From: Brachybacterium alimentarium
GTDB lineage: Bacteria > Actinomycetota > Actinomycetes > Actinomycetales > Dermabacteraceae
Length of the DNA: 64,000 nt
Assembly: GCF_002332425.1 (NCBI RefSeq)
Contig: NZ_NRGS01000022.1
Location: forward strand, 1-64,000
Direction of reading: 5' to 3'
Shown here: positions 42,904-60,986 of the stretch, piece after piece
Numbering within the stretch: position 1 is the stretch's first letter
Layout of the letters: every line of letters starts with the position of its first letter
Notes under the pieces: generated by a model
The model's input: the letters and a program-made list of their open reading frames with translations, nothing else
What the model was told of the DNA's origin: nothing
The model's database searches: none
Program-made: the position numbers and the translations under genes

Positions 42904-42925
42904 CTAGGGGGAGCGCTCCCCCTAG
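42904..42925. promoter_or_regulatory. 22-bp perfect palindrome, LacI-type operator
   Basis: CTAGGGGGAGC is followed directly by its exact reverse complement. The inner 16 bases, GGGGGAGCGCTCCCCC, are identical to two sites upstream of the phosphodiester importer operon at 49.5-49.65 kb. It lies 38 bp before the ATG of the secreted enzyme at 42964, so a bound repressor would block that promoter. Confidence 0.8.
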
Positions 42926-42963
42926 TGTGGATCTCCCATGACGACAACCTTCAGGAGAAGACC

Positions 42964-43917
42964 ATGGACATGTCGATCGCCCGCCGCACCTTCGCGACCG
43001 GAATCGGGGCAGCCGCCCTCGGAGGAGCTGCCGCAGCGATTGCCGCTCCCGCCTCGGCTGCACCCGTGAGAGCCGACGGCGACAGTGCTCGACCGCTGAT
43101 CGGCAGGGCAGGCCGCGACCGCCTGCATGTAATGTCGTTCAACATCCGCCAGGACACCACCCCCGAGACAGAACCAGGGGACCCGGATCATTGGCCGGAC
43201 CGTGAACCGGTGCTGATCGATCTGCTGGCCCGTGAGGAGCCGACCCTTCTGGGCGTGCAGGAGGCGCAGTACACCCAGATGAGCGCGATCGACTCCGCCC
43301 TGCCCCGGCATCGGATGATCGGCTACGGGCGCAAGGGCGGCAGCAAGGACGAGCACTCGGCGATCTTCTACGACACGACCCGCCTCGAGGTCCTGGCCTG
43401 GGACCAGTTCTGGCTCTCGGACACCCCGGAGGTCATCGGCTCCGCGACCTGGGGGAACCGCATCACCCGCATCGTGGTGTGGGCGCGGCTGCGGGACCTC
43501 GCCAGCGGGGCCGAGTTCGCGATGATCAACACCCATTTCGACCACGAGTCCGAGCAGGCACGGATCAAGAGCGGCCAGGCGATGATCGACCTCTTCGACG
43601 GTGGTGAGCTCGACCAGCTCCCCACCATCGTCACCGGCGACTACAACTCACCCGCCCACGACTCCGGCGCCTACACGACCCTCGTCACGGACGGCCCCAC
43701 CGTGGATTCCTGGGATGCCGCGGCCGAGCAGCTCACCCCGGCCTGGGAGACCTGCCCCGGATATGCAGAGGCAGTCGAGGGCGGCGACCGGATCGACTGG
43801 GTGCTGACCACGGAAGACATCACCACGCATCAGGCCGCGATCAACGACTACCGCGATCCCAGCGGTGCCTTCGCGTCCGATCATCTGCCGATGCAGGCGT
43901 TGCTCTCCCTGCCCTGA
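42964..43917 (+). CDS. Secreted endonuclease/exonuclease/phosphatase-fold enzyme
   Basis: 317 residues with AGGAGA before the ATG. ARRTFATGIGAAALGGAAAAIAAPASAAP is a twin-arginine signal peptide ending with a cleavable SAA-like site near residue 33. The EEP fold follows: LHVMSFNIRQDT (Asn 60), GVQEAQ (Glu 100), NTHFDHESEQAR, TGDYNSPAHD and ASDHLPM at the C-terminus. These are the metal and catalytic residues of the DNase I/sphingomyelinase/inositol-phosphatase superfamily. It probably hydrolyses a phosphodiester outside the cell. Its operator is shared with the importer/GDPD operon, which supports a phosphodiester substrate. DNA is another possible target. Confidence 0.87.
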   Translation: MDMSIARRTFATGIGAAALGGAAAAIAAPASAAPVRADGDSARPLIGRAGRDRLHVMSFNIRQDTTPETEPGDPDHWPDREPVLIDLLAREEPTLLGVQEAQYTQMSAIDSALPRHRMIGYGRKGGSKDEHSAIFYDTTRLEVLAWDQFWLSDTPEVIGSATWGNRITRIVVWARLRDLASGAEFAMINTHFDHESEQARIKSGQAMIDLFDGGELDQLPTIVTGDYNSPAHDSGAYTTLVTDGPTVDSWDAAAEQLTPAWETCPGYAEAVEGGDRIDWVLTTEDITTHQAAINDYRDPSGAFASDHLPMQALLSLP

Positions 43918-43930
43918 GAGTCCTCGCGCA

Positions 43931-43975
43931 GGCACGGCCCGCCGCCCCGGGGGAACCGGGGAGGCGGGCCGTGCC
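43931..43975. terminator. Strong bidirectional hairpin terminator
   Basis: GGCACGGCCCGCC-GCCCCGG pairs with CCGGGG-A-GGCGGGCCGTGCC around a short GGGAA loop, about 19 bp of stem with one bulged base. It separates the convergent EEP and GH130 genes. Confidence 0.85.
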
Positions 43976-43999
43976 GTGCCGGGGTCCGACCGAGTGAGC

Positions 44000-44992
44000 T
44001 CAGCCGTCGGCGCGCAGATCGGTCCCGTACGTCGCGCCCGGATCGGCGACCGCGACGGCGAGCGTGGTGTCGGACTGGCCGTAGTAGGCGAACCACGTCC
44101 CGCGGAACTTCACGAGCCCCTCCACGAAGGTCACGTTCGAGACCAGCCCGTGCGTGTCCTCGAAGGTCTGCGGGCGCAGCCACGGCTCCTGGAGGCGGGC
44201 GAGGACCGTCGTCGGGTTCGCGGGGTCGATGACGATCTGGCCGCAGCGGTAGTCGACCTCCCGCGTGCCGTCCTTCAGGTAGCGCCGGGTGGCGCCGTTG
44301 GTGAGCATCAGCAGGAGCCCGTCGTCCGTCAGCACCGGAGAGGTGCCGATCTCCACGAGGGCCTCGTCCCAGGTGCCCGGGGTGGGGGAGTACATCGGCT
44401 CCTCGTCGCTCGTGCCGGGGGTCCAGTGGATGAGGTCGTCGCTGGTCGCCCAGTAGATCCCGCCCTCTCCGAAGTACATCCACCACTTCCCGTCGATCTG
44501 CTGAGGGACGATCACGCCAGCCTTGGACCAGTTGAAGCCGCGCGGGTCCATGGTCTTGAAGGTGTCGAAGTCCTCGAAGAGCGGGCCGTGCTTGGTCCAC
44601 GTGCGCAGGTCGGGAGAGGTCGCCAGGCACAGCTGCGCGGAGCGTCGGTCCCAGCCCGTGTAGGTGAGGTAGTAGGTGCCCTCGATGTATGCGATGCGCG
44701 GGTCCTCGCAGCCGAAGCGCTCGTAGTCGTGCTCGGGCGAGAGGATCGGAGCGTTCTCCCGCTCGAAGTGGTAGCCGTCGTCGCTGAACGCGATGCCGAC
44801 GTGGGAGACGATGTCCTCCGCGTGGGCCCGATACAGCAGCACCACCTGGTCATCGACGACCAGCGCCGCCGGGTTGTAGAGGTTCGAGGACTCCCAGGAG
44901 TCGCCCTTGGGCCGCAGGATCGGGTTGTTCTCGTAGGGGGTGAAGGGGCCCAGCGGGAAGCGGGCGTCGCCGAAGAGGCTGGTGGTGGTCAT
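44000..44992 (-). CDS. GH130 family mannoside hydrolase/phosphorylase
   Basis: 330 residues. The five-bladed beta-propeller start has ENNPILRP (21-28), SSNLYNPAALV (35-45), LLYRAH (52-57) and FGCEDPRIAYIEGTYYLTYTGWD (93-115), all typical of GH130. GTWDEALVEIGTSPVLTDDGLLLMLTNG follows. Family members act on beta-mannosides, either by phosphorolysis (beta-1,4-mannosyl-glucose or manno-oligosaccharides) or by hydrolysis (beta-1,2-mannosides). I cannot decide between these. It is the last gene of a LacI-headed ABC operon, so the substrate is probably an imported mannoside. AAAGGA precedes the ATG. Confidence 0.9.
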   Translation of the reverse strand: MTTTSLFGDARFPLGPFTPYENNPILRPKGDSWESSNLYNPAALVVDDQVVLLYRAHAEDIVSHVGIAFSDDGYHFERENAPILSPEHDYERFGCEDPRIAYIEGTYYLTYTGWDRRSAQLCLATSPDLRTWTKHGPLFEDFDTFKTMDPRGFNWSKAGVIVPQQIDGKWWMYFGEGGIYWATSDDLIHWTPGTSDEEPMYSPTPGTWDEALVEIGTSPVLTDDGLLLMLTNGATRRYLKDGTREVDYRCGQIVIDPANPTTVLARLQEPWLRPQTFEDTHGLVSNVTFVEGLVKFRGTWFAYYGQSDTTLAVAVADPGATYGTDLRADG

Positions 44993-45138
44993 GGGGAGGT
45001 CCTTTGCAGTGGGGGTCGAGGAGGAGAGCAGCGGCGGCTCGGCGCGGTGGCGCCGATCGCCTCCGCTGCTGCGGTCGCTTCAGCTGCGGCCGTATCAGTC
45101 GTATCGGTGGCGTCAGATGCGTCGGTCGTGTCGGCCGA
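44993..45138 (-). other. Open frame continuing past the permease stop to the GH130 start
   Basis: After the permease TGA the same minus-strand frame stays open for about 48 codons of Asp/Thr/Ala-rich sequence (DTTDASDATDTTDTAAAEA). It closes with a TGA that overlaps the GH130 ATG as ATGA. The permease already ends with a family-typical C-terminus, so this is either a readthrough tail, a relic of a longer protein that was coupled to GH130, or chance. Confidence 0.4.
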
Positions 45139-45975
45139 TCACCCCTTCACCCCGGCGCCGATGTCGGAGGCCGTGAAGTACTTCTGGAACAGGCAGAACA
45201 GGATCACGACGGGCAGCGCGAGGGCGCAGGCTCCGGCGAGGATCGCGCCATTGGGGTTCGCGACGGTCTGGGCGATGTTGGCGATGTAGTTCGCCAGCGC
45301 CACCGCGAGGGGCTGCATCGAGGCGTCCTTCGTGATGAGGAACGGCCAGAGGAATTCGTTCCACGGGCCGATGAAGGTGATCAGCACGACCGTCGCGATC
45401 GCCGGGCGCACCAGCGGGATCGCGATGGCCCACAGCACCCTCAGCTCGCTCGCCCCGTCGATCCTCGCCGCCTCGAACATCTCCTCGGGCAGGGCCAGGA
45501 AGAACTGCCGGAAGATGAACACCGCGGTGGTGTTGATGAAGAACGGCAGGATCATCCCGGCGTAGGTGTCCCCGAGCCCGTACGAGCCGGCGACCTGCAC
45601 GTACAGGGGGATCATGAGCAGCTGGAAGGGGACCATCTGCACCCCGAGCATGACCACGAACAGTACTCCGCGGCCACGCCAATGCAGCCGGGACATGGCG
45701 TAGCCGGCGCTGAGGCCGAAGGTCAGGGTGCCCAGCAGGACACCGGCGGTGAACACCACCGAGTTCAGCAGCGCACGCAGCAGCGGGAGCCGCTCGTTGA
45801 TGCTGGCGAAGTTCTCCAGGGTCCAGCCCCCGGTGGGGAACATGCCCGCCGGGGTGGTGGTCGGGTTTTCCTGCAGGGCACCGACGATCATGAAGTAGAA
45901 GGGGAAGATGAACACCAGCGCCGCGAGCGCGAGGATCACGTACAGCGCGATCCGGGTGGGGGTGCGGGACCTCAT
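45139..45975 (-). CDS. Sugar ABC transporter permease (MalG-like)
   Basis: 278 residues with six membrane helices. AAGGAGAG precedes the ATG, which lies 1 bp after the stop of the partner permease. The coupling loop is EAARIDGASELRVLWAIAIPLVRPAIA, and the C-terminus LFQKYFTASDIGAGVKG is standard for the family. It is part of the GH130 operon importer. Confidence 0.93.
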   Translation of the reverse strand: MRSRTPTRIALYVILALAALVFIFPFYFMIVGALQENPTTTPAGMFPTGGWTLENFASINERLPLLRALLNSVVFTAGVLLGTLTFGLSAGYAMSRLHWRGRGVLFVVMLGVQMVPFQLLMIPLYVQVAGSYGLGDTYAGMILPFFINTTAVFIFRQFFLALPEEMFEAARIDGASELRVLWAIAIPLVRPAIATVVLITFIGPWNEFLWPFLITKDASMQPLAVALANYIANIAQTVANPNGAILAGACALALPVVILFCLFQKYFTASDIGAGVKG

Positions 45976-45976
45976 G

Positions 45977-46900
45977 TCAGCTCTCCTTCGTCAGGCGGGT
46001 GGAGGCCAGGGACAGCAGGCCGACGCCGATCACGAGCAGCACGCCGATCGCAGAGGCGACATCCGGGTTCCCCTGCTGGATGCCCTTCTGGTAGATCATC
46101 AGCACCGGTGAGGTGGAGGCGCCATCCGGTCCGCCGCCGCTGGTCAGCAGATATGGCTCGGTGAACAGGTTCGCGCCGGTGATGATCGAGAGGATCAGCA
46201 CGAGCATCGTGGTGGCGCGCAGGCCCGGCACCGTGATGTGTCGGAAGCGCTGCAGGATCCCGGCCCCGTCGGTCGAGGCGGATTCGTACAGCTCTTTCGG
46301 CACGTTCTGCAGCGCGGCGAGATACAGCAGGATGTAGAACCCCAGCTGCTTCCACGTCACGTACAGGGCGATCGACGGCATCGCGAGGGCGTCGTTGACC
46401 AGCCACGAAGGATCCGGGGCGAGCGGCCCGAGGATCGTGTTGACCAGGCCATCCTGCGAGAACAGCAGCATCCACACGCCGATCAGCGACACGCTCGCCG
46501 TCACGTACGGGACGTAGAACGCCACGCGGAAAGCACCGGCCCAGCGGGTGACCGCGTTCAGGGCCGAGGCGAACCCCATCGACAGGATGACCGTGAGAGG
46601 CACATTGATCACGAGGAACACCGCGATGTTGCCGAAGGACTGCAGCACGCGGGGATCGGTCAGGGCGGTGCGGTAGTTCTCCAGCCCCACGAACGGATGG
46701 TCCATGTCCATGCCGGGGGCGGTGAAGACGTAGTCGAAGAACGAGATGTACACGGCGTAGGCCAGGGGATATGCCATCACCGCGGCGAGGAACACGATGT
46801 ACGGCAACGAGAGTCCCAGACCGAGGGGCTGCTTCCCGAGCAGCCGACGCAGCGGGCTCGTCGGAGGGCGTAGGGGCGGGGCGGTATCGGGGGTGATCAT
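45977..46900 (-). CDS. Sugar ABC transporter permease (MalF-like)
   Basis: 307 residues from ATG 46900, which overlaps the binding-protein stop; a longer in-frame extension upstream lies inside that gene and is rejected. A Pro-rich leader precedes six membrane helices, with the coupling loop ESASTDGAGILQRFRHITVPGL near 205. GGGPDGASTSPVLMIYQKGIQQGN is a common loop in MalF/UgpA-type permeases. No ATPase is encoded nearby, so a shared MsiK-like ATPase is likely. Confidence 0.93.
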   Translation of the reverse strand: MITPDTAPPLRPPTSPLRRLLGKQPLGLGLSLPYIVFLAAVMAYPLAYAVYISFFDYVFTAPGMDMDHPFVGLENYRTALTDPRVLQSFGNIAVFLVINVPLTVILSMGFASALNAVTRWAGAFRVAFYVPYVTASVSLIGVWMLLFSQDGLVNTILGPLAPDPSWLVNDALAMPSIALYVTWKQLGFYILLYLAALQNVPKELYESASTDGAGILQRFRHITVPGLRATTMLVLILSIITGANLFTEPYLLTSGGGPDGASTSPVLMIYQKGIQQGNPDVASAIGVLLVIGVGLLSLASTRLTKES

Positions 46901-48204
46901 CGTGCTCCCTTCTGCACCAGTTGGTCGATCTGCTCGGCGGCATCGTGCAGGCCGTCCGCGACCGACTTCTTCCCGAAGATCGCGGAGGCGGAGAACTCGT
47001 CGCGGAATCGCTGCCAGATCTCGATGGCACCGGACAGGTAGGGCACATCGGCCACTCGATCGGCCTGATCGGCGAAGCTCGTGTAGTCGGGATGCTCGGC
47101 GAAGTAGTCCGGGTAGGTGGCGAGCAGGTCGGTGCGCAGGGGCATCTGACCGGAGAGCTCGAGCAGCTTGCCGTCCCACTCCTCGCTGGTGGCGAAGGAC
47201 AGGAACTCCCAGGCCGTGAGCCGATTTCGGCTCGAGCTGAACATCGCGACGTTCTTGGAGTCCGCGAAGGTAATGGTCTCCTCGGGGGCGATGCCGTCCG
47301 CACTGGGAACCGGCATGAATCCGTAGTCGAGCTGATCCTTGTAGGTGGCGATCGCCCAGGGCCCTGCCAGCTGCATCGCGGTGGTGCCCATCGTCATCGC
47401 GTCGTCCGTGGACTCCTCCCGTGGGGCGAGCCCTTCCTCGTACATCGCGCGCCACAGCTCGGCGACCGCTAGGCCGTCGGGGGAGTCGAACGTGGTCGCC
47501 TCATCCTCCACGAGGAGCGTGCCGTGGGTCTGGGCGAGGTACATCGGGTAGAAGTCGAACCACGGCTGGTAGAAGTCGCTGGTGGGCGCAGGCCAGACGG
47601 CTGATGCCGAGGCACCTGAGCTGACGATCTGCCGTGAGCCCTCGAGGAAGGTCCCGAAGGTGTCCATTTCCGGGGACTCCGGGTCGATCCCGGCGGCCGC
47701 GAAGATCTCCTTGTTGAACATGACCATCACCGGGTTGGACTTCCAGGGCAGCTGGTAATAGCCGCCCTGGCCGCCGTCCTCGGCGTAGTCGCGGGCGCGC
47801 TGTCCGGTGCGGCTCTCGATGTGCTCCCGGCCGCCCTCGAACGTGGTCAGATCGACCAGGCCGCCGGCGCGCACCCAATCGGGCAGCGCCGCCGGGGACG
47901 CGTTGAAGACGAGGTCTGCGGTGGTGCCGGCCACGATCGCGGCGGAGATGGCCTCCTCCGAGCTGGCCCCGGCAGGGACCTCCTGAAGTGTGACCTGCTC
48001 ATCGGGATGTTCGGCGTTCCAGGCGGCGGTGACTGCCTCGCCCCAGGCGAGCTCCTGCTCGTTGTTGGAGACCCAGACCCGGATGGGGCCGCGAGTTGTC
48101 GCCGCCTGCGCAGCGTCGACCGCGCTGCGTGAGCAGGCTCCTGCGGCGAGGGTCAGAGGAACTGCGAGTGCTGTGGCGCCGAGAGCGCGCCGGGTGAGGG
48201 TCAT
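46897..48204 (-). CDS. Sugar ABC transporter substrate-binding lipoprotein
   Basis: 435 residues. LTRRALGATALAVPLTLAAGAC is a Tat-like lipoprotein signal with Cys 24. The mature family 1 binding protein has RVWVSNNEQELAWGEAVTAAWNAEHPDEQVTLQEV, VMVMFNKEIFAAAGIDPESP and TTAMQLAGPWAIATYKDQ. It probably binds a manno-oligosaccharide, judged from the GH130 enzyme in the operon. GGAG precedes the ATG, and the gene follows the LacI gene by 29 bp. Confidence 0.92.
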   Translation of the reverse strand: MTLTRRALGATALAVPLTLAAGACSRSAVDAAQAATTRGPIRVWVSNNEQELAWGEAVTAAWNAEHPDEQVTLQEVPAGASSEEAISAAIVAGTTADLVFNASPAALPDWVRAGGLVDLTTFEGGREHIESRTGQRARDYAEDGGQGGYYQLPWKSNPVMVMFNKEIFAAAGIDPESPEMDTFGTFLEGSRQIVSSGASASAVWPAPTSDFYQPWFDFYPMYLAQTHGTLLVEDEATTFDSPDGLAVAELWRAMYEEGLAPREESTDDAMTMGTTAMQLAGPWAIATYKDQLDYGFMPVPSADGIAPEETITFADSKNVAMFSSSRNRLTAWEFLSFATSEEWDGKLLELSGQMPLRTDLLATYPDYFAEHPDYTSFADQADRVADVPYLSGAIEIWQRFRDEFSASAIFGKKSVADGLHDAAEQIDQLVQKGAR

Positions 48205-48233
48205 CGTCGATCTCCTCGGTGGTGGGTGGATGG

Positions 48234-49268
48234 TCAGTGTCGAGAGGGCGGGGCGATGCTGCCTCGGCGCACGACGACGGTGCCGTCGACGAGGACGGGG
48301 CGGCGGGCATCGCCGCCGAGCGCCGCCAGCAGCGTGCGGGCCGCGACGGCGCCGCGTACGTCGGCCCCGGTGGAGACGCTGGTCAGCCCGGGGGAGAGGT
48401 GCGCGGAGAGCTCGCTGTCGTCGAAGCCCGTGACGGAGAGGTCCTCCGGGACGCGCAGTCCGGAGCTGCGCGCGTAGGAGAGCCCGGCGATCGCCATCAC
48501 GTCGTTCGCGTAGACGATGGCCGACGGACGATCCGCGCGGTCGACCAGGGCAGCGGTCGCATCGCGACCGGACGCGGCGGTGAAGTCGCCCTCGACGATG
48601 CGATCCGGACGGAGGCCGTGATGGGTCATCGCGTCCACGAAGGCGTCCCGGCGCGCCGCGGCGTGGACGTAGCGCAGGGGCCCGGAGACGTGCGCGATGG
48701 AGGTGTGGCCGGCACCCACGAGCAGGTCCACGAGCTCGCCGACGGCGGCGGCGTCCTCGGTGTAGACCACGGGGGTGTCGACGGGATCATCCTCGTGCGG
48801 CGCTTCGGCCGTGAGCATCACAGCGGTCAGTCCCAGCTCGCGGACGAGGTCAGGACGGCGGTCGCCCTGCTTCACATCGAGCAGGATCACGCCATCGACG
48901 CGTCCCGCGGCGTATCGCTCGTAAGCCGCCGTCTCGGCGTCTTCATCAGTGACGACGTTGAGCATCAGGCCCATCCCGGCCTCGGCGAGGACGGCCTCGC
49001 AGCCGGCGATGAAGCGTGGGAAGAAGGTGTCGGTGGCGATGATCTCCGGCCGCCGTGCGATGACGAGACCGATCGTGCTGGTGCGAGAGGTCGCGAGCGC
49101 CTGGGCGCTCGAGCTCGCGGTCCACCGCAGCGATTCAGCCGCTGCGAAGACACGGCGACGAGTCTCCTCCGCCACCGGGCGCTTGCCGGAGTAGGCGAGG
49201 GAGACGGTGCCCTTGGAGACGCCGGCAGCCCGCGCGACGTCCCCGATGGTGGGTCGTGCACCGTGCAT
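48234..49268 (-). CDS. LacI-family repressor heading the GH130 operon
   Basis: 344 residues from ATG 49268, preceded by GGAGGAGG. A longer frame to 49385 would cross one operator and is rejected. The DNA-binding domain is PTIGDVARAAGVSKGTVSLAYSGKRPVAEETR (6-37), with hinge helix SSAQALATSRTSTIGLVIA. The sensor domain contains YERYAAGRVDGVILLD and HVSGPLRYVHAAARRDAFVDAM. Two identical CAAACCGGTTTG palindromes lie 115-150 bp upstream, so it probably represses its own operon, including the importer and GH130. Confidence 0.92.
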   Translation of the reverse strand: MHGARPTIGDVARAAGVSKGTVSLAYSGKRPVAEETRRRVFAAAESLRWTASSSAQALATSRTSTIGLVIARRPEIIATDTFFPRFIAGCEAVLAEAGMGLMLNVVTDEDAETAAYERYAAGRVDGVILLDVKQGDRRPDLVRELGLTAVMLTAEAPHEDDPVDTPVVYTEDAAAVGELVDLLVGAGHTSIAHVSGPLRYVHAAARRDAFVDAMTHHGLRPDRIVEGDFTAASGRDATAALVDRADRPSAIVYANDVMAIAGLSYARSSGLRVPEDLSVTGFDDSELSAHLSPGLTSVSTGADVRGAVAARTLLAALGGDARRPVLVDGTVVVRRGSIAPPSRH

Positions 49269-49382
49269 GGGCTTCCTCCTCCGTGCGGGGTGAGAGCGGT
49301 CGGATCGGTCCTGTCGGCGGTCGGTCCCGCCGGGTCGGGCATCCTCAGCAGAGGTGCTGGCGCTGACGCCTGATTCGATGCG

Positions 49383-49394
49383 CAAACCGGTTTG
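49383..49394. promoter_or_regulatory. LacI operator CAAACCGGTTTG, copy 1
   Basis: A perfect 12-bp palindrome with the central CG found in many LacI-family operators. It is 115 bp upstream of the LacI start and 25 bp centre-to-centre from an identical copy, a spacing of about 2.4 helical turns. Confidence 0.75.
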
Positions 49395-49407
49395 AACAGT
49401 GAGCAGT

Positions 49408-49419
49408 CAAACCGGTTTG
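49408..49419. promoter_or_regulatory. LacI operator CAAACCGGTTTG, copy 2
   Basis: Second exact copy of the palindrome. Two sites this close could bind two dimers side by side on the promoter of the LacI-GH130 operon. The same 12-mer was not seen elsewhere in the window. Confidence 0.75.
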
Positions 49420-49539
49420 CTGTGACGTGTCAAGTCGTTCGGGAATGAGGGGTCTCCGTGTGTGGCACGCGATCGCGCCGCCACTCGTGGCCACTTGTGC
49501 ATTCTTGCGAGCATCGTTTAGTGTTGCTGATCACGTACA

Positions 49540-49555
49540 GGGGGAGCGCTCCCCC
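49540..49555. promoter_or_regulatory. Operator GGGGGAGCGCTCCCCC, distal copy
   Basis: Perfect 16-bp palindrome about 190 bp before the binding-protein start. TTGCGA at about 49505-49510 and TAGTGT-like bases just upstream could be a promoter that this site overlaps or follows. Identical to the site at 49635 and to the core of the site at 42904. Confidence 0.8.
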
Positions 49556-49634
49556 ACTGTTCGGTCAGAGTTCACATGGCGATGCCTTCGGCGTTGCGTC
49601 GGATCCACTTTCGATGACGAGAGTTCCTACCGGT

Positions 49635-49650
49635 GGGGGAGCGCTCCCCC
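49635..49650. promoter_or_regulatory. Operator GGGGGAGCGCTCCCCC, proximal copy
   Basis: Second exact copy, 95 bp downstream of the first (9 helical turns) and 90 bp before the ATG at 49741. The integral helical spacing would allow DNA looping by a tetrameric LacI-type protein. Confidence 0.8.
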
Positions 49651-49740
49651 TGGCGCGGCCTCGACGTGACGCCCGTCCGCAGTCGTCCGCACCTCCGCCC
49701 TCCGGAGGGCCTCACCCCTTCGTGCACAGAAAGCGTTCCC

Positions 49741-50793
49741 ATGCGACAGCTCCTGAAAGCCTCCGCAGTCCTCGCGACCGCAGCCCTTGCCCTGACCGCC
49801 TGCGGAAGCGCCGACAGCGGCGCCGACTCCGGCGACACGCTCATCGTCTACACGAACTCCAACGGCGATGGCCGTGGGGACTGGCTCACCGAGCAGGCTG
49901 CCGAGGCCGGCTTCGACATCGAGGTCGTCGGCCAGGGTGGCGGGGACACCACCAACAAGATCCTCGCCGAGGCGGGCAATCCCGTCGCCGACGTCGTGTT
50001 CGGGCTCAACAACGTCTACTTCAACCAGCTCGTGGACGCCGAGACGATCGAGCCGTACACCCCGGTGTGGGCCGACGAGGTCGACGCCGAGCTGGGCGAC
50101 GCCTCCGGGGACGGGAACTACTGGCCCGTCGTGCAGCAGGCGGTCCTGCTCGCCTACGACGCCGACAGGATCGATGCGGCCGACGCCCCGAGCGACTGGC
50201 TCGACCTCTGGAACGACCCCGCCTTCGAGGGCCGCTACCAGTCCGAGACCAGCATGGGCAACGCCACCATCCAGATCGTCATGTCCGGCATCCTCACCCG
50301 CTATGCCGATCCTGAGGGCGAGATGGGCATCTCCGAGGAGGGCTGGGCCGAGGTCGGGAAGTACTTCAGCACCGGCAGCCCCGCCGTCGAGGACGTCGAC
50401 ATCTTCCAGCGGATCGTGGACGGGGAGGTCGACTACGGGCAGCTGCCGTCCTCCGGCCTGCCCGGCCGTGAGGCGAGCTACGACATCACAGCCGGTGTGG
50501 TGGAGCCCGAGGTGGGCGTGCCATTCGTGGTCGAGCAGGCCGCGATCATCAAGGGCACCGACCAGCTCGAGGAGTCCCAGGAGTTCATCGACTGGTTCGG
50601 CGGCGCCAATCTGCAGGCCGCCTGGTCCGCGGAGTTCGACTCCATGCCTGTGAACCAGGGCGCGATCGACCAGGCCGAGCCGTCGATCGTCGAGTTCCAC
50701 GAAGGTCTCGTGCGGCAGGACATCGACTGGGAGTTCGTCACCGAGAACCTCAACGGCTGGGTCGAGAAGATCGAGCTCGAATACGTCGTCTGA
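49741..50793 (+). CDS. ABC substrate-binding lipoprotein (iron/phosphonate-type family 1)
   Basis: 350 residues. MRQLLKASAVLATAALALTAC is a lipoprotein signal with Cys 21. The mature protein starts TLIVYTNSNGDGRGDWLTEQAAEAGFDIEVVGQGGGDTTNKILAEAGNP, the pattern of AfuA/FbpA/PhnS-like binding proteins for ferric ions, hexose phosphates or phosphonates. YWPVVQQAVLLAYDADRI and PSDWLDLWNDPAFEGRYQ follow. The iron-binding tyrosine pair of FbpA is not evident, and the operon encodes phosphodiesterases, so I favour a phosphorylated organic ligand such as a glycerophosphodiester. A weak AGAAAG precedes the ATG. Confidence 0.85.
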   Translation: MRQLLKASAVLATAALALTACGSADSGADSGDTLIVYTNSNGDGRGDWLTEQAAEAGFDIEVVGQGGGDTTNKILAEAGNPVADVVFGLNNVYFNQLVDAETIEPYTPVWADEVDAELGDASGDGNYWPVVQQAVLLAYDADRIDAADAPSDWLDLWNDPAFEGRYQSETSMGNATIQIVMSGILTRYADPEGEMGISEEGWAEVGKYFSTGSPAVEDVDIFQRIVDGEVDYGQLPSSGLPGREASYDITAGVVEPEVGVPFVVEQAAIIKGTDQLEESQEFIDWFGGANLQAAWSAEFDSMPVNQGAIDQAEPSIVEFHEGLVRQDIDWEFVTENLNGWVEKIELEYVV

Positions 50794-50837
50794 CCGGCCT
50801 CGCACCACCACCGCACCCTCTTCCGGAAGGCACCGAG

Positions 50838-51923
50838 ATGATCCGCTACGACGGGATCCGCGTGGACTACGGCGATTTCACGGCGATCCACGACCTCGAC
50901 CTGCACGTGCGCGAAGGCGAATTCTTCACCTTGCTGGGCCCCTCGGGCTGCGGCAAGACCACTGCTCTGCGCACGCTGGCAGGCTTCGTGAGCCCCTCGG
51001 CCGGGGACGTCCACGTCGCAGGCCGGCGCGTCACGCGCCTGCCCAGCGACAAGCGCCAGATCGGCATGGTGTTCCAGAACTACGCCCTGTTCCCGTCGTT
51101 GAACGTGCGGGAGAACATCGCTTTCGGGCTCAAGGTCCGCAAGGAGTCCCGAGCCGAGGTGGAGCGCAAGGTCCGGGAGATCGCCGAACAGGTCGATCTG
51201 TCCCCCACCCAGCTCGAGAAGAACCTTGCCGATCTCTCCGGGGGGCAGCAGCAGCGCGTGGCGATCGCGCGCGCGCTGGTGCTGCGCCCCAAGATCCTGC
51301 TGCTGGACGAACCGTTGTCGAACCTCGACGCGAAGCTCCGCGCCCAGCTGCGAGTGCAGCTCAAGGACCTCCAGGAGCAGTTCGGCATCACCACCGTCTA
51401 CGTCACCCACGATCAGGACGAGGCGCTGAGCATGAGCGATCGCATCGCCGTCTTCCACGACGGCCGGGTGGAGCAGATCGGCACCCCCGAAGAGATCTAC
51501 GACGCCTCCGCCACCGAGTTCGTGTGCCACTTCATCGGCGATGCGAGTCGCCTGTCGCCCGCTCTCGTCACCGAGGTCGCGGCCCGGTCGGGCACGGCCC
51601 TCGACCCCACGCGCGCCTCGTACGTGCGCGAGGAGAAGGTGCGGCTCGGCCCCGGGACGGCCAGCGGCGGATCGGTCGCGCTTCCCGGCACCGTGGTGCG
51701 CCGTCGGTACCACGGAGTGCGCTCGAGCTACGAGATCAGCACGCACGGCGCGATCGTCAAGGTCATGCAGCCCGAGGACGGCTCCGCCCGCCCCCAGGCC
51801 GGCGACGCGGTCACCGTGCACATCGACCCCGCCACGATCCTCCAGTACGAGGGCAGGGCCGCCTCTGGCGCCGACGAGGACGGGGCGCCCGCGACCGCCG
51901 TGACGTCCGTGGCCGCGCGATGA
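50838..51923 (+). CDS. ABC ATPase with C-terminal TOBE domain
   Basis: 361 residues. Walker A GPSGCGKTT (34-42), signature LSGGQQQRVAIARAL (133-147), Walker B ILLLDEPLSNLDAKLR, H-loop VYVTHDQDEALSMSDR. After about residue 235 a TOBE-like domain contains EKVRLGPGTASGG and VVRRRYHGVRSSYEISTHGAIVKVMQP, as in PotA/FbpC/UgpC-type ATPases. CGGAAGG lies upstream of the ATG. It energises the fused permease encoded next. Confidence 0.93.
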   Translation: MIRYDGIRVDYGDFTAIHDLDLHVREGEFFTLLGPSGCGKTTALRTLAGFVSPSAGDVHVAGRRVTRLPSDKRQIGMVFQNYALFPSLNVRENIAFGLKVRKESRAEVERKVREIAEQVDLSPTQLEKNLADLSGGQQQRVAIARALVLRPKILLLDEPLSNLDAKLRAQLRVQLKDLQEQFGITTVYVTHDQDEALSMSDRIAVFHDGRVEQIGTPEEIYDASATEFVCHFIGDASRLSPALVTEVAARSGTALDPTRASYVREEKVRLGPGTASGGSVALPGTVVRRRYHGVRSSYEISTHGAIVKVMQPEDGSARPQAGDAVTVHIDPATILQYEGRAASGADEDGAPATAVTSVAAR

Positions 51924-53683
51924 ACGGCGCGAGCAGCATCTCGAGGATGATCCGCTCGCCGTTCGTGATCGTCACCGGCGTGATCGTGGGCTGGTTCATC
52001 GTCGCGTTCCTGATCTGGCCCAATGCGAATCTGCTGGTGCAGACCTTCGTCCCGGACGGCGAGCCCACCCTGCGGGCGGTCGAGAAGCTCGCCTCGTCGG
52101 AACGGGCCATGACGTCCCTCAGCAACTCGTTCCTGCTGGCGTTCGTCCTCTCGGTCACCGTGAACGTCGTCGGCATCTTCGTCGTGCTGGTCACGCGGTA
52201 CTACGACATCAGGGGCGGCAGGATCCTGTGGCTGGGATACGCCACCACCCTGATCTACGGCGGTATCGTGCTGGCCGCCGGGTACAAGTTCGTCTATGGC
52301 GCCGACGGGATCATCACCGGGTTCCTGCTGCGACTGTTCCCCGAGATGGACGCCGACTGGTTCAGCGGCTTCTTCGCCGTCGTCGTCGTGATGACCCTGG
52401 CCACCACGACGAACCACCTGCTGTTCGTCTCCAGCGCCCTGTCCAAGGTGGACCATCAGACCATCGAGGCGGCACGGAGCATGGGTGCTTCGGAGTGGAC
52501 GATCCTGCGCCGAGTGGTCCTGCCGATGCTGAAGCCGGTGCTCTTCGCCGTCACGATCCTCACGTTCCTGGGCGGGCTCGGGGCGCTGTCGGCCCCGCAG
52601 GTGCTCGGCGGGCGCGACTTCCAGACCATCACCCCGATGATCCTGACGTTCGCCGCGACTCCCAGCTCGCGGGACATCGCCGCGCTCCTCGCGCTGGTGC
52701 TCGGCATCGCCACGGTGCTCCTCCTGATCGTTCTGACCCGGATCGAGAAGGGCGGCACCTATTTCTCGATCGCCAAGGTCTCCTCGCAGTTGGTCAAGCA
52801 GAAGATCCGCAATCCGGTGCTGAACGTCGCGGTGCACGTGGTCGCCTACGCACTGTTCGCGGCCTATCTGCTGCCCGTCATCCTCATCGTCCTGTACTCC
52901 TTCCAGGACTCCCGCGCGATCGAGTCCGGGCAGTTCCGCTTCTCGACCATGTCCCTGGACAACTATGTGCGCGTGCTCGGGGAGTCCGCGAGCCTGCGGC
53001 CCTTCGTCATCAGCATCGTCTACGCGGGCCTCGCCTCCCTGATCAGCGTGCTCGGGCTGCTGTTCGTCGCCCGCATCATCGCGAAGCACCGCAACGCGAT
53101 CACGCTCGCCGCCGAATACCTGCTCCACATCCCGTGGATCCTGCCGACCACCTTGATCGCGCTGGGCCTGATCATCAGCTACGACCATCCGAGCCCTCTG
53201 GTGGGTGGCCGCGTACTCACCGGGACCACCGTGATCCTGCTGATCGCCTACGTGATCGGCAAGATCCCCTTCACCCTGCGCCTGCTGAAGGCTGCCTTCT
53301 CGGGGATCAATGACAACCTCGAGGAAGCCGCCTCGCTGATGGGCGCGAGGACACTGTACGTCTTCCGCAGGATCCTGCTGCCCGCGGTGCTGCCGACGGT
53401 TCTGGCGATCGGGGCGCTGAACTTCAACAGCCTGCTGGACGACTACGACACCTCCGTATTTCTCGCGCACCCGCTGTTCCAACCGCTGGGCCTGGTCATC
53501 AAGGCGAGCACCGAGGGTGATGCCAACCTCGATGCGCGCGCGAACACCTTCGTCTATACGGTGCTGCTCATGATCATCACCGGCGCGACGATGTACCTGG
53601 TCTACGGGCGGGGTGCCCGGGATCGCAGCGGCCGGCGCGCCCGAGCACGCCGTCAGCGCGATCGCGTCGGGGCCGAGCGATGA
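51920..53683 (+). CDS. Fused double ABC permease (FbpB/ThiP type)
   Basis: 587 residues, start overlapping the ATPase stop as ATGA. Two permease domains are joined: six helices up to about residue 275 and six more from about 300. Each half has its own coupling loop, EAARSMGASEWTILRRVVLPMLKPV near 185 and EEAASLMGARTLYVFRRILLPAVLPTV near 480. Such fusions are typical of iron, thiamine and phosphonate importers. One polypeptide thus forms the whole channel. Confidence 0.92.
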   Translation: MNGASSISRMIRSPFVIVTGVIVGWFIVAFLIWPNANLLVQTFVPDGEPTLRAVEKLASSERAMTSLSNSFLLAFVLSVTVNVVGIFVVLVTRYYDIRGGRILWLGYATTLIYGGIVLAAGYKFVYGADGIITGFLLRLFPEMDADWFSGFFAVVVVMTLATTTNHLLFVSSALSKVDHQTIEAARSMGASEWTILRRVVLPMLKPVLFAVTILTFLGGLGALSAPQVLGGRDFQTITPMILTFAATPSSRDIAALLALVLGIATVLLLIVLTRIEKGGTYFSIAKVSSQLVKQKIRNPVLNVAVHVVAYALFAAYLLPVILIVLYSFQDSRAIESGQFRFSTMSLDNYVRVLGESASLRPFVISIVYAGLASLISVLGLLFVARIIAKHRNAITLAAEYLLHIPWILPTTLIALGLIISYDHPSPLVGGRVLTGTTVILLIAYVIGKIPFTLRLLKAAFSGINDNLEEAASLMGARTLYVFRRILLPAVLPTVLAIGALNFNSLLDDYDTSVFLAHPLFQPLGLVIKASTEGDANLDARANTFVYTVLLMIITGATMYLVYGRGARDRSGRRARARRQRDRVGAER

Positions 53684-54618
53684 GCGCCGCCTTCCGGCAC
53701 CCGCAGCGGGGCGGCACCGACCGGCTCCTGCACCGGCGCCTCGCCGAGCTGGGGACCCTCGTGGTGGCGCATCGCGGCACGGCCGTCGGCAGCATCGCCG
53801 AGAACACCCGCGTGGCGGCGATGGCCGCTCTCGTCTCCGGGGCCGATGTGGTCGAGATCGACGTCTCGACCTCCGCGGACGGAGAATTCTACGCCTTCCA
53901 CGACGGGACCGAGCAGCGGCTGCTCGGGATCGGCGCGAACCTCACCACGCTCACGGCGCGGCAGATCGACGAGCTGCGATACGTGCACGTGGACCGCCCG
54001 GGCCGTCCGGCTGGTGTGGAACGCCTGCTCGACCTCCTGGCCGCGCTGCGTCCCACTGAGCTGGGTGTGGAGGACGAGGCGGCGCCCCTGGTGAACGTGG
54101 ACCGGTCCTGGGGGTCATGGGCCACGCTCCTCCCCGCCCTGGACGGTCTCGGGATGACCGAGCAGCTGCTGCTGAAGAGCCCGGCCGCTCTGCCCGGACC
54201 GCTCGACGTCCTGCGGCGCCACGAGGTGAAGTACCCCTACCTGCCGATCTGCACGGATCTCGCGCAGATCGAGGACCTCGTCGAGGACGATGACCTCGAC
54301 GTCGTGGGCGTCGAGCTGCTGGCCGATGGCCCGGACCACCAGCTCGCGGACCCCGACCTGTTCGTCGAGCTGCACGCCCGCGGACTGTTCGTGCTGGTCA
54401 ACGCCGAGGTGCTGACCAACGGGATCCCGCTGTTCGCGGGCTATGACGACGAGGCGGCGCTGCTGCACGGGCCCGGTGCCGGGTGGGGACCGCTGTTCGA
54501 CCTCGGCGCCGATCTGATCCAGACAGACTGGCCCTGGCTGCTGCGTGCCTATCGTGGGACCCGAGCAGCCCGCGGCACCGCCGGGGCGACAGCCGTCGAC
54601 CAGGAAGTCCGTTCATGA
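53680..54618 (+). CDS. Glycerophosphodiester phosphodiesterase-family enzyme
   Basis: 312 residues, ATGA overlap with the permease. GDPD motifs are in order: VVAHRG (His 31, Arg 32), SIAENT (Glu 41, Asn 42), VVEIDV (Glu 59, Asp 61) and FHDGT (His 74, Asp 75). TELGVEDEA near 125 carries the metal-binding acidic residues, and DLIQTDWPWLLRAY is the C-terminal signature. It has no signal peptide, so it acts in the cytoplasm on the imported compound. The reaction releases an alcohol and a phosphomonoester from a glycerophosphodiester-like substrate. The exact head group is unknown. Confidence 0.9.
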   Translation: MSAAFRHPQRGGTDRLLHRRLAELGTLVVAHRGTAVGSIAENTRVAAMAALVSGADVVEIDVSTSADGEFYAFHDGTEQRLLGIGANLTTLTARQIDELRYVHVDRPGRPAGVERLLDLLAALRPTELGVEDEAAPLVNVDRSWGSWATLLPALDGLGMTEQLLLKSPAALPGPLDVLRRHEVKYPYLPICTDLAQIEDLVEDDDLDVVGVELLADGPDHQLADPDLFVELHARGLFVLVNAEVLTNGIPLFAGYDDEAALLHGPGAGWGPLFDLGADLIQTDWPWLLRAYRGTRAARGTAGATAVDQEVRS

Positions 54619-55730
54619 GCACCTCCGCCTCCGCCCCTCCCGAGCCACGTCCCCCCGGTCGCGTCCGGCTGGAGGACGTCGCCGCCGCCGCCGGGGTCTC
54701 CCGCACCTCCGCCTCCCGCGTCATGCTCGGCCAGGGAAAGGTCTCCGACCGGACCCGGCGCCGAGTGCTCGCGGTCGCCGACGAGCTCGGATATGTCACC
54801 AACGTCGCCGCGAGCGAGCTCGCCTCCGGAGGCTCGTCCACCGTCGGCCTCCTGCTGCGCGACGCCTCCAACCCTGCCTACGGTCTGCTGTTCAGCGAGC
54901 TGCAGAAGGCGGGCCACGCCGCCGGCGTCACGCTGCTGTCGATGACCATCAAGCATGACGACCAGGGCCGGCAGCAGGTGGCCAGCCTGCACCGCCTGAT
55001 GGGCATGCGCGTGGCCGGTCTGATCGTCGCCACGGGCGGAGTGACCAGCGACCAGCTCGAGCCCTTCCGCGACCGGCTTCCCATCATCCGGGCCGGACGC
55101 CCGGAGAGCAGCGGGCGGATCCACGCCGTCTCCTACGACGAGGAGGACGCGGCCCGTCGCCTCGCCGAGCACATTCTGGAACTAGGCCACACGGATGTGG
55201 CCGTGCAGACCGCCCGCGCCGAGGACTCCTACCCCGAGTTCGTGCGCAGCACTGTCATGACCCAGCTGCTCGAGAGCCGCGGAGCCACGGTGCACCGGCT
55301 CGAGTACCGACGAGGTCACGACGCGATGGACGAGTCCGTGGACCTGGCCCGTCGCGGCCGCGTCAGCGCCGTCATGGTCCCCTCCGACCTGCGGCAGCTG
55401 ACCCTGATCCGTCGTCTCCACGAGGCGGGCCTGCGGACCCCCGAGGACGTCGCCACCACCGGCTGCGACGGGATCCTTCCCGGGATCGACCTGCTGGGCT
55501 TGACCACCATGCGCATCGCCGTCGAGGACGTCGCCGAACGGACCATCGCGAACATCGCCCGGATGATCGGGGCGACCGGCATCGGGGACGATGCGGGGTC
55601 GGGCGGATCCGCGGAGGCCGGGCCTGGAGATCCCGCAGGAGGCAGGGTCGTGCACGAGCGGCTGCCCGGACGATTCATCCAGGGGCGCACCGCCGGGCCG
55701 CCCCGCACCACCGGAAGGACACCCGCATGA
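54615..55730 (+). CDS. LacI-family repressor of the phosphodiester operon
   Basis: 371 residues, start overlapping the GDPD stop. The DNA-binding domain is [35 protein letters not shown] (17-51) with hinge [19 protein letters not shown]. The sensor domain has [15 protein letters not shown] and [17 protein letters not shown] Gly/Pro-rich extra segment near 325-350 lies before the last strands. It is the only LacI gene inside the operon preceded by the GGGGGAGCGCTCCCCC palindromes, so it is their most likely ligand. That would place the secreted enzyme at 43 kb under its control as well. Confidence 0.9.
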
Positions 55731-56644
55731 ACGCACTGCGCGCCGCCGAATATCCGAGGGCGAACCACACCCTGGTCCACCTCTCGGACACCCATTTCGT
55801 GCCCCCGGGCGAGCTGCTGTCCGGGGTCGCCCCGGTCCGTGAGCATCTCGAGGGGCTGCTCGAGGACCTGGTCGCCACCAACCTGCGACCCGAGGCACTG
55901 ATCTTCACCGGCGACCTCGCCGATCGCGGGGAGGCACCCGCCTATCGGCAGCTGCGCGAGCTGGTCGAGCCGCTCGCCGAGCACCTCGGCGCCAAGCTCA
56001 TCTGGGTGATGGGCAATCACGACGATCGCGCCACGATGCGCACCGAGCTGCTCGATGCGGAGGCCGACGACGCCCCGTACGACCGGGTGGTCATGCTCGG
56101 AGGCCTGCGGATCATCGTGCTCGACTCGACCGTGCCCCGCAGGGCCTACGGCGAGATCCGTCCGGCCCAGTACGCCTGGCTGCGAGAGGTGCTCTCCGAG
56201 CCTGCCCCGGAGGGAACGATCCTCGCCCTGCACCATCCCCCGGTCCCGTGCGTCCAGGACCTCGCTATCACCGTCGAGCTGCGCGACCAGGACGCCCTGG
56301 CTCAGGTGCTGGCCGGCAGCGATGTGCGCGCGATCATCGGGGGTCACTTCCACTACTCGACCTCCGCGACCTTCGCGGGCATCCCGGTCTCCGTCGCCTC
56401 GGCCACCTGCTACACCCAGGACCTGCAGACGCCCGACCGCGGCACGCGGGGCCGGGACGGCGCGCAGGCCTTCAACCTCGTCCATGTGTACAACTCCACG
56501 ATCATGCACTCCGTGGTGCCCCAGGGCGGCGGCGCGAGTGTGAGCCGCCATGTCGATGGTGCTGCCACCGCCCGCAAGCTCGCCGAGCAGGGCCTGTACA
56601 TCCCCGACGCCCCGGCGATCGCGAGCTGGACGGGGGCCCGGTGA
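55727..56644 (+). CDS. Metallophosphoesterase, CpdA/GpdQ-type phosphodiesterase
   Basis: 305 residues, ATGA overlap with the LacI gene. Binuclear-metal motifs are complete: SDTHF (Asp 21, His 23), TGDLADRG (Asp 63), GNHDDR (Asn 97, His 98), LALHHPPVP (His 170) and GGHFHYS (His 208, His 210). This is the class III cyclic-nucleotide phosphodiesterase group, whose member GpdQ cleaves glycerophosphodiesters. With the GDPD gene two bases of overlap upstream and a HAD phosphatase downstream, a second diesterase for the same pathway is likely. A role on cyclic AMP cannot be excluded. Confidence 0.9.
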
Positions 56645-57528
56645 TCCTGGACCCCGGACGCCGCATCGTCTTCCTCGACGTCGACGGCACGATCATCGCC
56701 CACGACGGAATCCTCCCCACCTCGACGGTCGACGCGATCCGCTCCGCCCGCGCCGCGGGGCACCGCGTACTGCTGGCCACCGGCCGTTCCCCGAGCGAGC
56801 TGGACCCTCGTCTCGCGGAGATCGGGTTCGACGGAGCCGTCCTCGGCGCCGGCGCCTTCGTACACCTCGGCGAGGACTGGGTGGTCCAGCACGCCATGCC
56901 CGTCGCGAAGGCGAGACGCATGATCGAGGTCTTCGGACAGCTCGATCTGGACTACGTGCTCCAGGCTCGCGACGGCGTCTATCCCGTCGCCTCGCGTCGG
57001 GAGGAGATGCGCAGGATGCTCGGTATCGAGGACCGGCCCGGGCTGGGGCCGGGCGAGGAGCTGGACATCGAGCAGGTCGCGGAGAAGGCCCCGCTCGACG
57101 CGATCGCCAAGGCGATCTTCCTCGGCGTGACCCCGGACGCCTTCGAACGGGTCCATCAGGCGCTCACGCCCGAGGGCTTCAGCGTGATCACCGGGACGAT
57201 CACGCATCTGGGCACCGGTGGGGGAGAGGTCTCACTGGCCGGGGTGAACAAGGGCTCGGCAATCCTGGCCCTGCTCGACCAGCTCGGGCTGGACGTGGCC
57301 GATTCGATCGGGATCGGGGACAACAACAACGATCTGGAGATGCTGCGCATCACTGGCGTGGGCATCGCGATGGGTGAGGCGACCCCCGAGGCGCGGGCCG
57401 CGGCCGATGAGATCACCGGCACGGTGCACCAGAGTGGGATCGCGCAGGCGTTCGCCCGGCACGGTCTGCTGGATACGCCAGCTCCCGAGGGCAAGGGATC
57501 AGCGACTGCGGGCGCCGCGCAGCGGTGA
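56641..57528 (+). CDS. HAD-superfamily (Cof-type) phosphatase
   Basis: 295 residues from a GTG overlapping the upstream stop as GTGA. Motif I is FLDVDGT (11-17), motif II sits in [11 protein letters not shown] (near 43), and motif III/IV is [14 protein letters not shown] then [12 protein letters not shown] near 222. Cof-type caps act on sugar phosphates and similar monoesters. It would dephosphorylate the monoester released by the two diesterases. Its 3' end overlaps the convergent MFS gene by 30 bp. Confidence 0.9.
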
Positions 57529-60352: not shown

Positions 60353-60362
60353 GATCCGACCG

Positions 60363-60380
60363 TATCTCACAGATGAGATA
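60363..60380. promoter_or_regulatory. Perfect inverted repeat at the HTH-MurA promoter
   Basis: TATCTCA (60363-60369) and TGAGATA (60374-60380) are exact reverse complements around CAGA. The repeat ends 11 bp before the ATG of the minus-strand HTH-MurA gene and probably covers its -10, leaving a very short 5' leader. The helix-turn-helix of that same protein is the obvious candidate ligand. Confidence 0.65.
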
Positions 60381-60407
60381 AGGGGACGGTGGAGAGTGCG
60401 GAGTCGG

Positions 60408-60986
<579 letters not shown>

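Follow-up and report, generated by a model that had tools for sequence, protein, structure and literature searches.

A predicted LacI regulon for organic-phosphate import and breakdown in Brachybacterium alimentarium

The locus and its genes

We analyzed a stretch of 64,000 nucleotides from Brachybacterium alimentarium (assembly GCF_002332425.1, contig NZ_NRGS01000022.1, positions 1 to 64,000; hereafter the window), in which a palindromic 16-mer, GGGGGAGCGCTCCCCC, lies ahead of both an operon (49741–57528, + strand) and a gene for a secreted enzyme of the endonuclease/exonuclease/phosphatase (EEP) fold. The operon itself encodes a LacI-family regulator (54615–55730), which is predicted to bind this palindrome and to control the import and breakdown of an organic phosphate.

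The first gene of the operon encodes a lipoprotein-like solute-binding protein (P0002; 49741–50793), assigned by family profiles and structure comparison to the SBP_bac_6/8 (organophosphate/ferric-type) family. It is followed by a PhnT2/PotA-like ABC ATPase with a TOBE domain (50838–51923) and a fused two-domain ABC permease (51920–53683), both identified by family profiles. The next product is a GDPD-like enzyme (P0005; 53680–54618; PF03009, E 9e-12) with a C-terminal match to DUF4996 (PF16387, E 1.4e-9) and 3i10 as its nearest solved relative; the motifs HRG...EN...E-D...HD, which we take to be those of GDPD, are present and aligned to 1zcc and 3i10. The regulator shows both the N-terminal LacI helix-turn-helix (PF00356, E 2.5e-14) and the periplasmic-binding-like core (PF13377, E 1.2e-14). 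The operon ends with an Rv0805-like metallophosphoesterase of the phosphodiesterase type (55727–56644) and a Cof-type HAD-IIB phosphatase (56641–57528; TIGR00099, 141 bits against a cut-off of 137). From the permease onward, every frame overlaps its predecessor by 4 bp. An earlier note, made from the sequence of this DNA alone, had listed an importer, a GDPD, a LacI protein, a diesterase and a HAD phosphatase in these frames, and this reading holds. Its diesterase, named as GpdQ-like there, is instead far nearer to Rv0805 (2hy1, E 3e-109; 3ib7, 'Icc protein', E 6e-113) than to 2dxl and 2zo9 (E about 9e-14), which we take to be GpdQ-type chains.

The EEP gene (42964–43917, + strand; PF03372, E 3e-11) encodes a protein with a Tat-like RR signal, recognized by eye. 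Its nearest solved chains are 3g6s, 3mpr and 4c1r, the last deposited as a mannosyl-6-phosphatase. The motifs N, QE, NTHFDH, GDxN and SDH, presumably those of the EEP superfamily, are present; 3g6s aligns over the whole domain and 3mpr and 4c1r align up to residue 252, the match to 4c1r (E 6e-28) covering residues 54–252 of the protein.

Copies of the palindrome

Exact copies of GGGGGAGCGCTCCCCC in the window lie at 42907–42922, 49540–49555 and 49635–49650. The first is the core of a perfect 22-bp palindrome (operator 1, 42904–42925) ending 38 bp before the ATG of the EEP gene. The other two (operators 2 and 3), both exact and like operator 1 without an assigned strand, are 95 bp apart and start 201 and 106 bp ahead of the start codon of the binding protein. 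The three copies and the 38-bp and 95-bp distances agree with those reported earlier; the description of the EEP gene and the operon as 'unlinked' was too strong, because they lie 5.8 kb apart on one contig. The whole assembly (3,982,721 bases in 67 contigs) contains three exact copies, all within the window, no one-mismatch copy, and nine other places with two mismatches. No copy arose in 100 dinucleotide shuffles of the window. On these counts and the rarity of the 16-mer across the order (see below), we rejected a chance palindrome.

In B. tyrofermentans (G036) the core of operator 1 and operator 2 are retained exactly, and operator 3 carries one substitution and one insertion; in another genome (G028) operator 2 has one mismatch. 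A possible promoter, TTGTGC-N18-TAGTGT (49495–49524, + strand), has its hexamers retained in G036 (N18) and G028 (N17) with a different spacer sequence. We rate it as weak, because it was read by eye and scans with consensus promoters detected none.

Pairing of regulator and palindrome

Homologous loci were collected with a permease alignment as the query, without use of the palindrome, and the best 80 of 138 confirmed loci were kept; the site was scored in the 73 with enough upstream DNA (7 had too little). At 0–1 mismatch it stands ahead of the binding-protein gene in all four loci with a close relative of LacI 54615 (clade A, 59–99% identity), and in none of the 69 others (Fisher, 9e-7). 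The four are from Occultella gossypii (L117), Tessaracoccus antarcticus (L123), Microbacterium paludicola (L158) and Brachybacterium tyrofermentans (L190). The last is a near copy of the window, and the first three belong to other families. The site is exact in three of them, and L158 has two one-mismatch copies. Thus a palindromic operator with a central CG, ahead of the genes it is predicted to control, is kept with the orthologues of this LacI. Occultella carries two exact sites, both ahead of the operon, and no one-mismatch copy. An additional one-mismatch copy was observed away from the operon in Tessaracoccus antarcticus (G410:C1:1396406).

A scan of 396 genomes, an even sample of a larger order, yielded the exact 16-mer in four. 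Three of these (G000, G036 and G310) have a clade-A LacI. The fourth, G033, has a single exact palindrome inside an open reading frame that reads by eye like an aldo/keto reductase, and its genome has no match to LacI 54615 at E 1e-40; we took this copy to be due to chance. The palindrome is therefore infrequent both in this genome and in its relatives, the scan of which had been proposed as a check.

G028 provides a natural deletion. Its LacI is 86% identical to that of the window, and the DNA passes from the operator side straight into the LacI, phosphoesterase and HAD genes, with a one-mismatch operator directly ahead of them. Within the 30-kb region retrieved on both sides of the LacI there is no importer, GDPD or EEP gene (the search for the importer covered this region only), and two more distant EEP homologues (45% and 38%) occur elsewhere. 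The operator has therefore stayed with the LacI without the importer.

Relatives of the regulator

LacI 54615 belongs to a set of four related groups. Clade A has the recognition helix VSR[TS]S[AV]SRV and the repeat GGGGGAGCGCTCCCCC. Group B, from Microbacterium and G287 (51–55% identity), has VSRATATRAL in all eight rows read and the repeat GCGGTCGCGCGAACGC, exact in five of the seven loci with upstream DNA and with two mismatches in the other two. Clade D, made up of paralogues within the genus (36–39% identity), has SRSTVSRVF, and in all 13 cases TGGGAGCGCTCCCA lies close to the gene with 0–1 mismatch. The table of LacIs from the genus comprises 20 rows (13 D, 4 C and 3 A), of which those of clade C without a site are uninformative because the loci stop short of the operon promoter. 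A palindrome, TGAACGCGCGTTCA, was seen about 70 bp ahead of the binding-protein gene of a clade-C operon in one genome (L265) and is a candidate clade-C operator.

In a tree of 48 LacIs (from 49 rows; L252 was excluded as its match was too short) A, B, C and D each form one branch, and A–D together stand apart from the other LacIs of this genome (100/98), among which a long-branch warning was given. Between the clades, helix and repeat differ together. This genome has 20 further LacI-like matches, and we found no C or D paralogue in it, as its next best LacI is only 31% identical to 54615. The claim that the palindrome belongs with this LacI is supported by comparative genomics in four genera.

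All four clade-A permease loci contain GDPD and Rv0805-like genes. Among the nine permease loci with a group-B LacI, eight have an Rv0805-like gene, the ninth (L165) being a 4.8-kb contig that ends too soon; two further loci have such a gene without the LacI. For clade C, three of four neighbourhoods were covered: G005 and G003 have the order binding protein, ATPase, permease, GDPD and LacI, and in G014 a GDPD gene adjoins the LacI. Clade-D genes lie divergent to UgpA-UgpE-UgpB and two or three GDPD genes in the three loci fetched (G020, G023 and G036; the first two are represented in the tree and G036 is not), and among solved chains the binding protein of this importer is closest to 6r1b (UgpB), presumably from an M. 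tuberculosis-type organism. Diester-cleaving-family phosphoesterases are therefore regular companions of the LacI subfamily; HAD phosphatases are not, since among the permease loci a relative was recognised in L190 (the near copy of the window), with a weak match in L167. The clade-D loci (L263, L264 and L267), with TGGGAGCGCTCCCA-type sites, form a predicted glycerophosphodiester regulon of Brachybacterium in their own right.

Substrate of the importer

The substrate was approached through the binding protein. A profile was built from the window protein and 33 of 76 usable homologues (L191, which has a stop codon, and L195 were dropped from the alignment, and L111 before the structure job). 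With this profile of 34 proteins the top matches were 8x1a (glucose 6-phosphate, G6P), 6wce (pyridoxal phosphate, PLP) and 4r6y (putative 2-aminoethylphosphonate, 2-AEP, binding); the subsequent matches are mostly iron binders, with AfuA (4r72) in eleventh place. An AlphaFold model (mean predicted local distance difference test score, pLDDT, 87.8) gave AfuA (Z 31.0; root-mean-square deviation 2.8 over 305 aligned residues), 8x1a (Z 30.6) and 6wce (Z 30.1) as its best fold matches. Fold similarity by itself does not identify the ligand. In the profile alignment no tyrosine stands opposite the tyrosine run of 7li0, the iron-site pair. The sugar-binding residues of AfuA are His205-Asp206-Glu229 (PMC4546632). 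The His-Asp and Glu of 8x1a, whose positions are assumed to be equivalent, align to Ser-Gly and Val in the window protein. No UgpB model was among those listed for this protein at E 0.001, the matches being SBP_bac_6/8 and PhnS-type models. Scores of the importer proteins against the NCBIfam PhnS, PhnT and PhnU equivalog models are under their cut-offs (PRK15046, 55 of 310 bits; PhnS2, 52 of 393; PhnT2, 339 of 458; PhnU2, 74 of 593).

Possible phosphate control in relatives provides a second line of evidence. We scanned both strands for two GTTCAYC units, which we take to be the PHO-box unit, at a spacing of 11 or 22 nt and with at most two mismatches. A PHO box is an 11-nt direct repeat (PMC7866108). 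Among the 72 of 80 loci with enough upstream DNA (8 had too little), 30 have such repeats ahead of the binding-protein gene, whereas they occur in 18 of 1387 stretches picked at random and, among 441 control promoters from the same loci, in 8. As a positive control, pstS promoters were found in eight of nine genomes, that of the window included at one mismatch. Group B shows the repeats at no more than one mismatch in six of six loci. In several Arthrobacter/Pseudarthrobacter importer promoters (L109, L108, L145 and L147) we also observed a TTTATCGAATCGATAG-like sequence upstream of the binding-protein gene.

The profile matches, the unaligned iron tyrosines and the PHO-box-like repeats of relatives support an organic phosphate as the substrate, our best guess being one other than G6P. 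Only the presence of a GDPD and an Rv0805-like enzyme in the operon points to a diester in particular.

The secreted enzyme and its surroundings

The EEP gene is the weak link of the predicted regulon. What speaks for the connection is that the 16-mer matches exactly and is otherwise found only at the operon. Upstream of the EEP gene the site was seen just in G000 and G036, and because these two species are 93.7% identical over this 20-kb DNA, its conservation says little about selection. We examined 22 of the 56 other matches to the EEP enzyme in the family (20 fetched regions, one with two copies, and a second copy in G036); PHO-like repeats at no more than two mismatches lie upstream of five of the 22, four of these five on the opposite strand. 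No copy of the palindrome with 0–1 mismatch was found within 4 kb of the 56 listed, the nearest being at 4.1 kb (G023). As none of the 22 examined has the site, and in the three clade-A genomes fetched from outside the genus copies with 0–1 mismatch lie at the operon (bar one place in Tessaracoccus), we rejected it as an old part of the regulon.

A third exact palindrome of B. tyrofermentans lies in a divergent promoter (L055, 4867–4886, contig C66 of G036), with a sugar importer on one side and, on the other, the gene for a large protein whose start looks Tat-like by eye; a HAD gene lies behind. The large protein has a sub-threshold match to a 6-hairpin glycosidase (23.2 of 24.5 bits) and no match at E 1e-100 among the other 46 genomes of the family. 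In this lineage the predicted regulon therefore expands to include genes of extracellular and sugar function. CGAAGCGTTTCGG-type repeats beside this palindrome are probably those of another LacI.

Adjoining the EEP gene, the window contains (44000–48204, − strand) a GH130 beta-1,2-mannosidase-like gene and a sugar ABC importer with another LacI. The GH130-like gene matches PF04041 above its cut-off, and its best NCBIfam model gives 228 of 550 bits with no confirmed equivalog; the region is a possible yeast-mannan or mannoside locus. The genus Brachybacterium is named in papers on cheese. Between the LacI at 48234–49385 (− strand) and the operon lie two AAACCGGTTT-type palindromes (49383–49394 and 49408–49419), whose core, AAACCGGTTT, is retained in G036 and G028; these are likely operators of that LacI. 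On the other side of the operon, 58817–60493 (− strand) reads by eye as a helix-turn-helix domain fused to a MurA/EPSP-synthase-like enzyme.

Proposed mechanism and alternative explanations

We propose that LacI 54615 binds GGGGGAGCGCTCCCCC and would repress its own operon through the two operators ahead of the binding-protein gene, and the EEP gene through the single operator at its promoter. Repression would be lifted when a small organic phosphate, or its product, appears in the cell. The importer, composed of binding protein, fused permease and ATPase, would take up an organic phosphate. A phosphodiester, for instance a glycerophosphodiester, is the most likely one; it would be split by the GDPD and the Rv0805-like enzyme, and the HAD phosphatase would strip the last phosphate. 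Outside the cell, the EEP enzyme may remove or release phosphate esters from larger material, possibly phosphorylated mannan. We consider this explanation as a whole to be fairly probable. Regulator-site pairing and gene content are the only parts of it that are data-based; the comparison supports this pairing, the three targets of the LacI in the genome, and an association of its subfamily with GDPD or Rv0805-like genes. That the LacI acts by repression, what induces the system, import of a phosphodiester, dephosphorylation by the HAD enzyme and the part played by the EEP enzyme are inferred.

Several observations weigh against this explanation. The importer mostly occurs without the enzymes, as a recognisable GDPD is present in 4 of the 80 permease loci (clade A only) and an Rv0805-like gene in 14. 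The group-B permease loci have no recognisable GDPD, and a HAD phosphatase was recognised in one of four clade-A permease loci, the near copy L190. None of the three repeats was seen in the clade-C promoters of G003, G005 and G014, where the best matches have 5–7 mismatches. In the profile search several iron binders score better than AfuA does. By fold, iron binders such as HitA (Z 29.6) come very close to the best matches, and HitA takes first place in the single-sequence and Foldseek lists. The Fisher value of the PHO comparison (1e-21) is optimistic, because the measure was chosen after the repeats had been seen by eye. The PHO repeat in the window's own importer promoter is weak, with three mismatches, and clade A scores 0 of 4 (three or four mismatches) against 30 of 68 elsewhere, a difference that is not significant (about p 0.11, calculated by hand). 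For that reason a replacement of PhoP control by the LacI in clade A is only a suggestion. The palindromes listed upstream of the 22 other EEP homologues do not include the GGGGGAGCGCTCCCCC motif, and the solved relative 4c1r is labelled as a phosphomonoesterase, so the EEP enzyme may release no diester at all. The idea of one LacI regulon for diester scavenging, as put forward in the earlier note, thus stands in part: the pairing and an organic phosphate are supported; release of a diester by the EEP enzyme (4c1r label) and the HAD step (L190 only) are less so. Of the carbon or phosphorus role suggested there, phosphorus gains from the repeats in relatives, but the repeat in the window's own promoter is weak.

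The importer might instead take up phosphomonoesters (sugar phosphates) in the manner of AfuABC, with the EEP enzyme trimming phosphorylated mannan, the GDPD and Rv0805-like enzymes being secondary, and the regulon belonging with the neighbouring mannoside locus. The G6P binder 8x1a as the best profile match, AfuA and 8x1a as the best folds, the mannosyl-6-phosphatase label of 4c1r, the GH130 and sugar-importer genes adjoining the EEP gene, and the third site of G036, in a divergent sugar-importer and exported-protein promoter with a HAD gene, all fit this view. It is nevertheless rather unlikely in our judgement, given that the presumed counterparts of the AfuA triad are Ser-Gly and Val, that the operon holds two phosphodiesterase-family genes, and that sister LacIs accompany Ugp and GDPD genes. 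A slightly better case can be made for an EEP gene that is co-regulated and recently recruited but works in a different pathway, such as general release of phosphate or mannan-phosphate, instead of opening the route through the importer. The absence of the site ahead of the 22 homologues agrees with this, as do the three clade-A genomes from outside the genus, where copies at 0–1 mismatch lie at the operon only, bar the one place in Tessaracoccus. On the other hand, among the family genomes searched, the site is shown only by the two with both a clade-A LacI and the EEP gene, and we regard this separate role as possible rather than likely.

Binding of the palindrome by another LacI, CebR-like or of clade D, is very unlikely. 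A 12-bp core is common to the palindrome and the CebR box, TGGGAGCGCTCCCA (PMC5332605); the D paralogues carry TGGGAGCGCTCCCA, and this genome has the 20 further LacI-like matches. We rejected such a regulator because no C or D paralogue was found here, the next best LacI being 31% identical, and because none of 19 genomes of the genus with only 34–40% identical LacI matches (E 1e-40) has the exact 16-mer. Least credible of all is iron or another metal as the substrate, which is what annotation of such binding proteins often says and which the earlier note had named as a refuting outcome. We rejected an iron importer on the unaligned tyrosine pair, although iron binders are never far behind, and one of them, HitA, heads both the single-sequence and the Foldseek lists; the phosphoesterase genes of the operon and the PHO-like boxes of relatives also argue for an organic phosphate rather than iron.

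Relation to known systems

Our preferred reading, LacI-controlled import and breakdown of an organic phosphate, has a close parallel in Ugp/GDPD uptake (UgpB of M. tuberculosis and E. coli; ugp-glpQ of C. glutamicum), which also combines ABC import with a GDPD for phosphodiesters. A linked GDPD is present here (PF03009, 53680–54618), and in three Brachybacterium loci a sister LacI is transcribed away from an operon of the UgpB type that includes two or three GDPD genes. The window differs in its SBP_bac_6/8-type binding protein, fused permease, Rv0805-like enzyme and HAD phosphatase, and in having its own LacI and palindrome. According to the sections of the source consulted, actinobacterial glycerophosphodiester uptake is by Ugp under phosphate control, and ugp of C. 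glutamicum responds to phosphate limitation (PMC7866108). AfuABC (sugar-phosphate), P5PA and PhnSTUV (2-AEP) share the fold and family of the binding protein, and the permease is long, as in PhnU2; by alignment the presumed counterparts of the sugar-binding triad are not conserved here, and scores fall far under the PhnS, PhnT and PhnU cut-offs.

The CebR/CelR cellulose regulon of Streptomyces is similar in its LacI-family regulator and its operator core, GGGAGCGCTCCC. The outer bases are G..C instead of T..A in all three operators of the window, which thus lack TGGGAGCGCTCCCA itself, and the predicted targets are an importer of the organophosphate type and phosphoesterases. CebR is not alone in using this core, because the TGGGAGCGCTCCCA of the clade-D paralogues equals the published CebR consensus 14-mer (PMC5332605). 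The diesterase is very close in sequence to the class III nucleotide phosphodiesterase Rv0805/Icc and differs in belonging to a LacI-linked importer operon. The EEP enzyme shares fold and aligned motifs with the 'mannosyl-6-phosphatase' 4c1r, which we take to be from a Bacteroides-type organism; the similarity covers residues 54–252 only, and the enzyme of the window is from a Gram-positive with predicted Tat-like export.

Among the open-licence PMC papers listed, judged by titles and the starts of abstracts, we found no description of this regulon, and neither 'glycerophospho' nor 'phosphodiester' occurs in the part of PMC4052901 seen. Each part belongs to a known family, but the literature so searched yielded no account of the set as a whole, of the operator or of the LacI subfamily. 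We thus regard this as a well-supported prediction of a regulon made of known parts. A broader view, which at present we hold to be speculative and improbable, is that clades A–D are an undescribed LacI subfamily sensing organic phosphodiesters in Micrococcales and their neighbours. Clade A would have taken over an importer that elsewhere is apparently controlled by phosphate starvation, and in two Brachybacterium would have added a secreted enzyme. The result would be a carbon-type route, induced by its substrate, that handles whole phosphodiesters; these may be mannosyl- or glycerol-phosphate diesters from the cell walls of yeast.

The locus would add a new form of substrate-controlled uptake of organic phosphate. 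A subfamily of LacI proteins that accompanies GDPD and Rv0805-like genes, and whose repeats change along with the recognition helix, would provide named regulators, their targets and a test set of importers, the nearest family models of which are named '2-aminoethylphosphonate' or 'iron', and a physiological setting is thereby offered for Rv0805-type phosphodiesterases.

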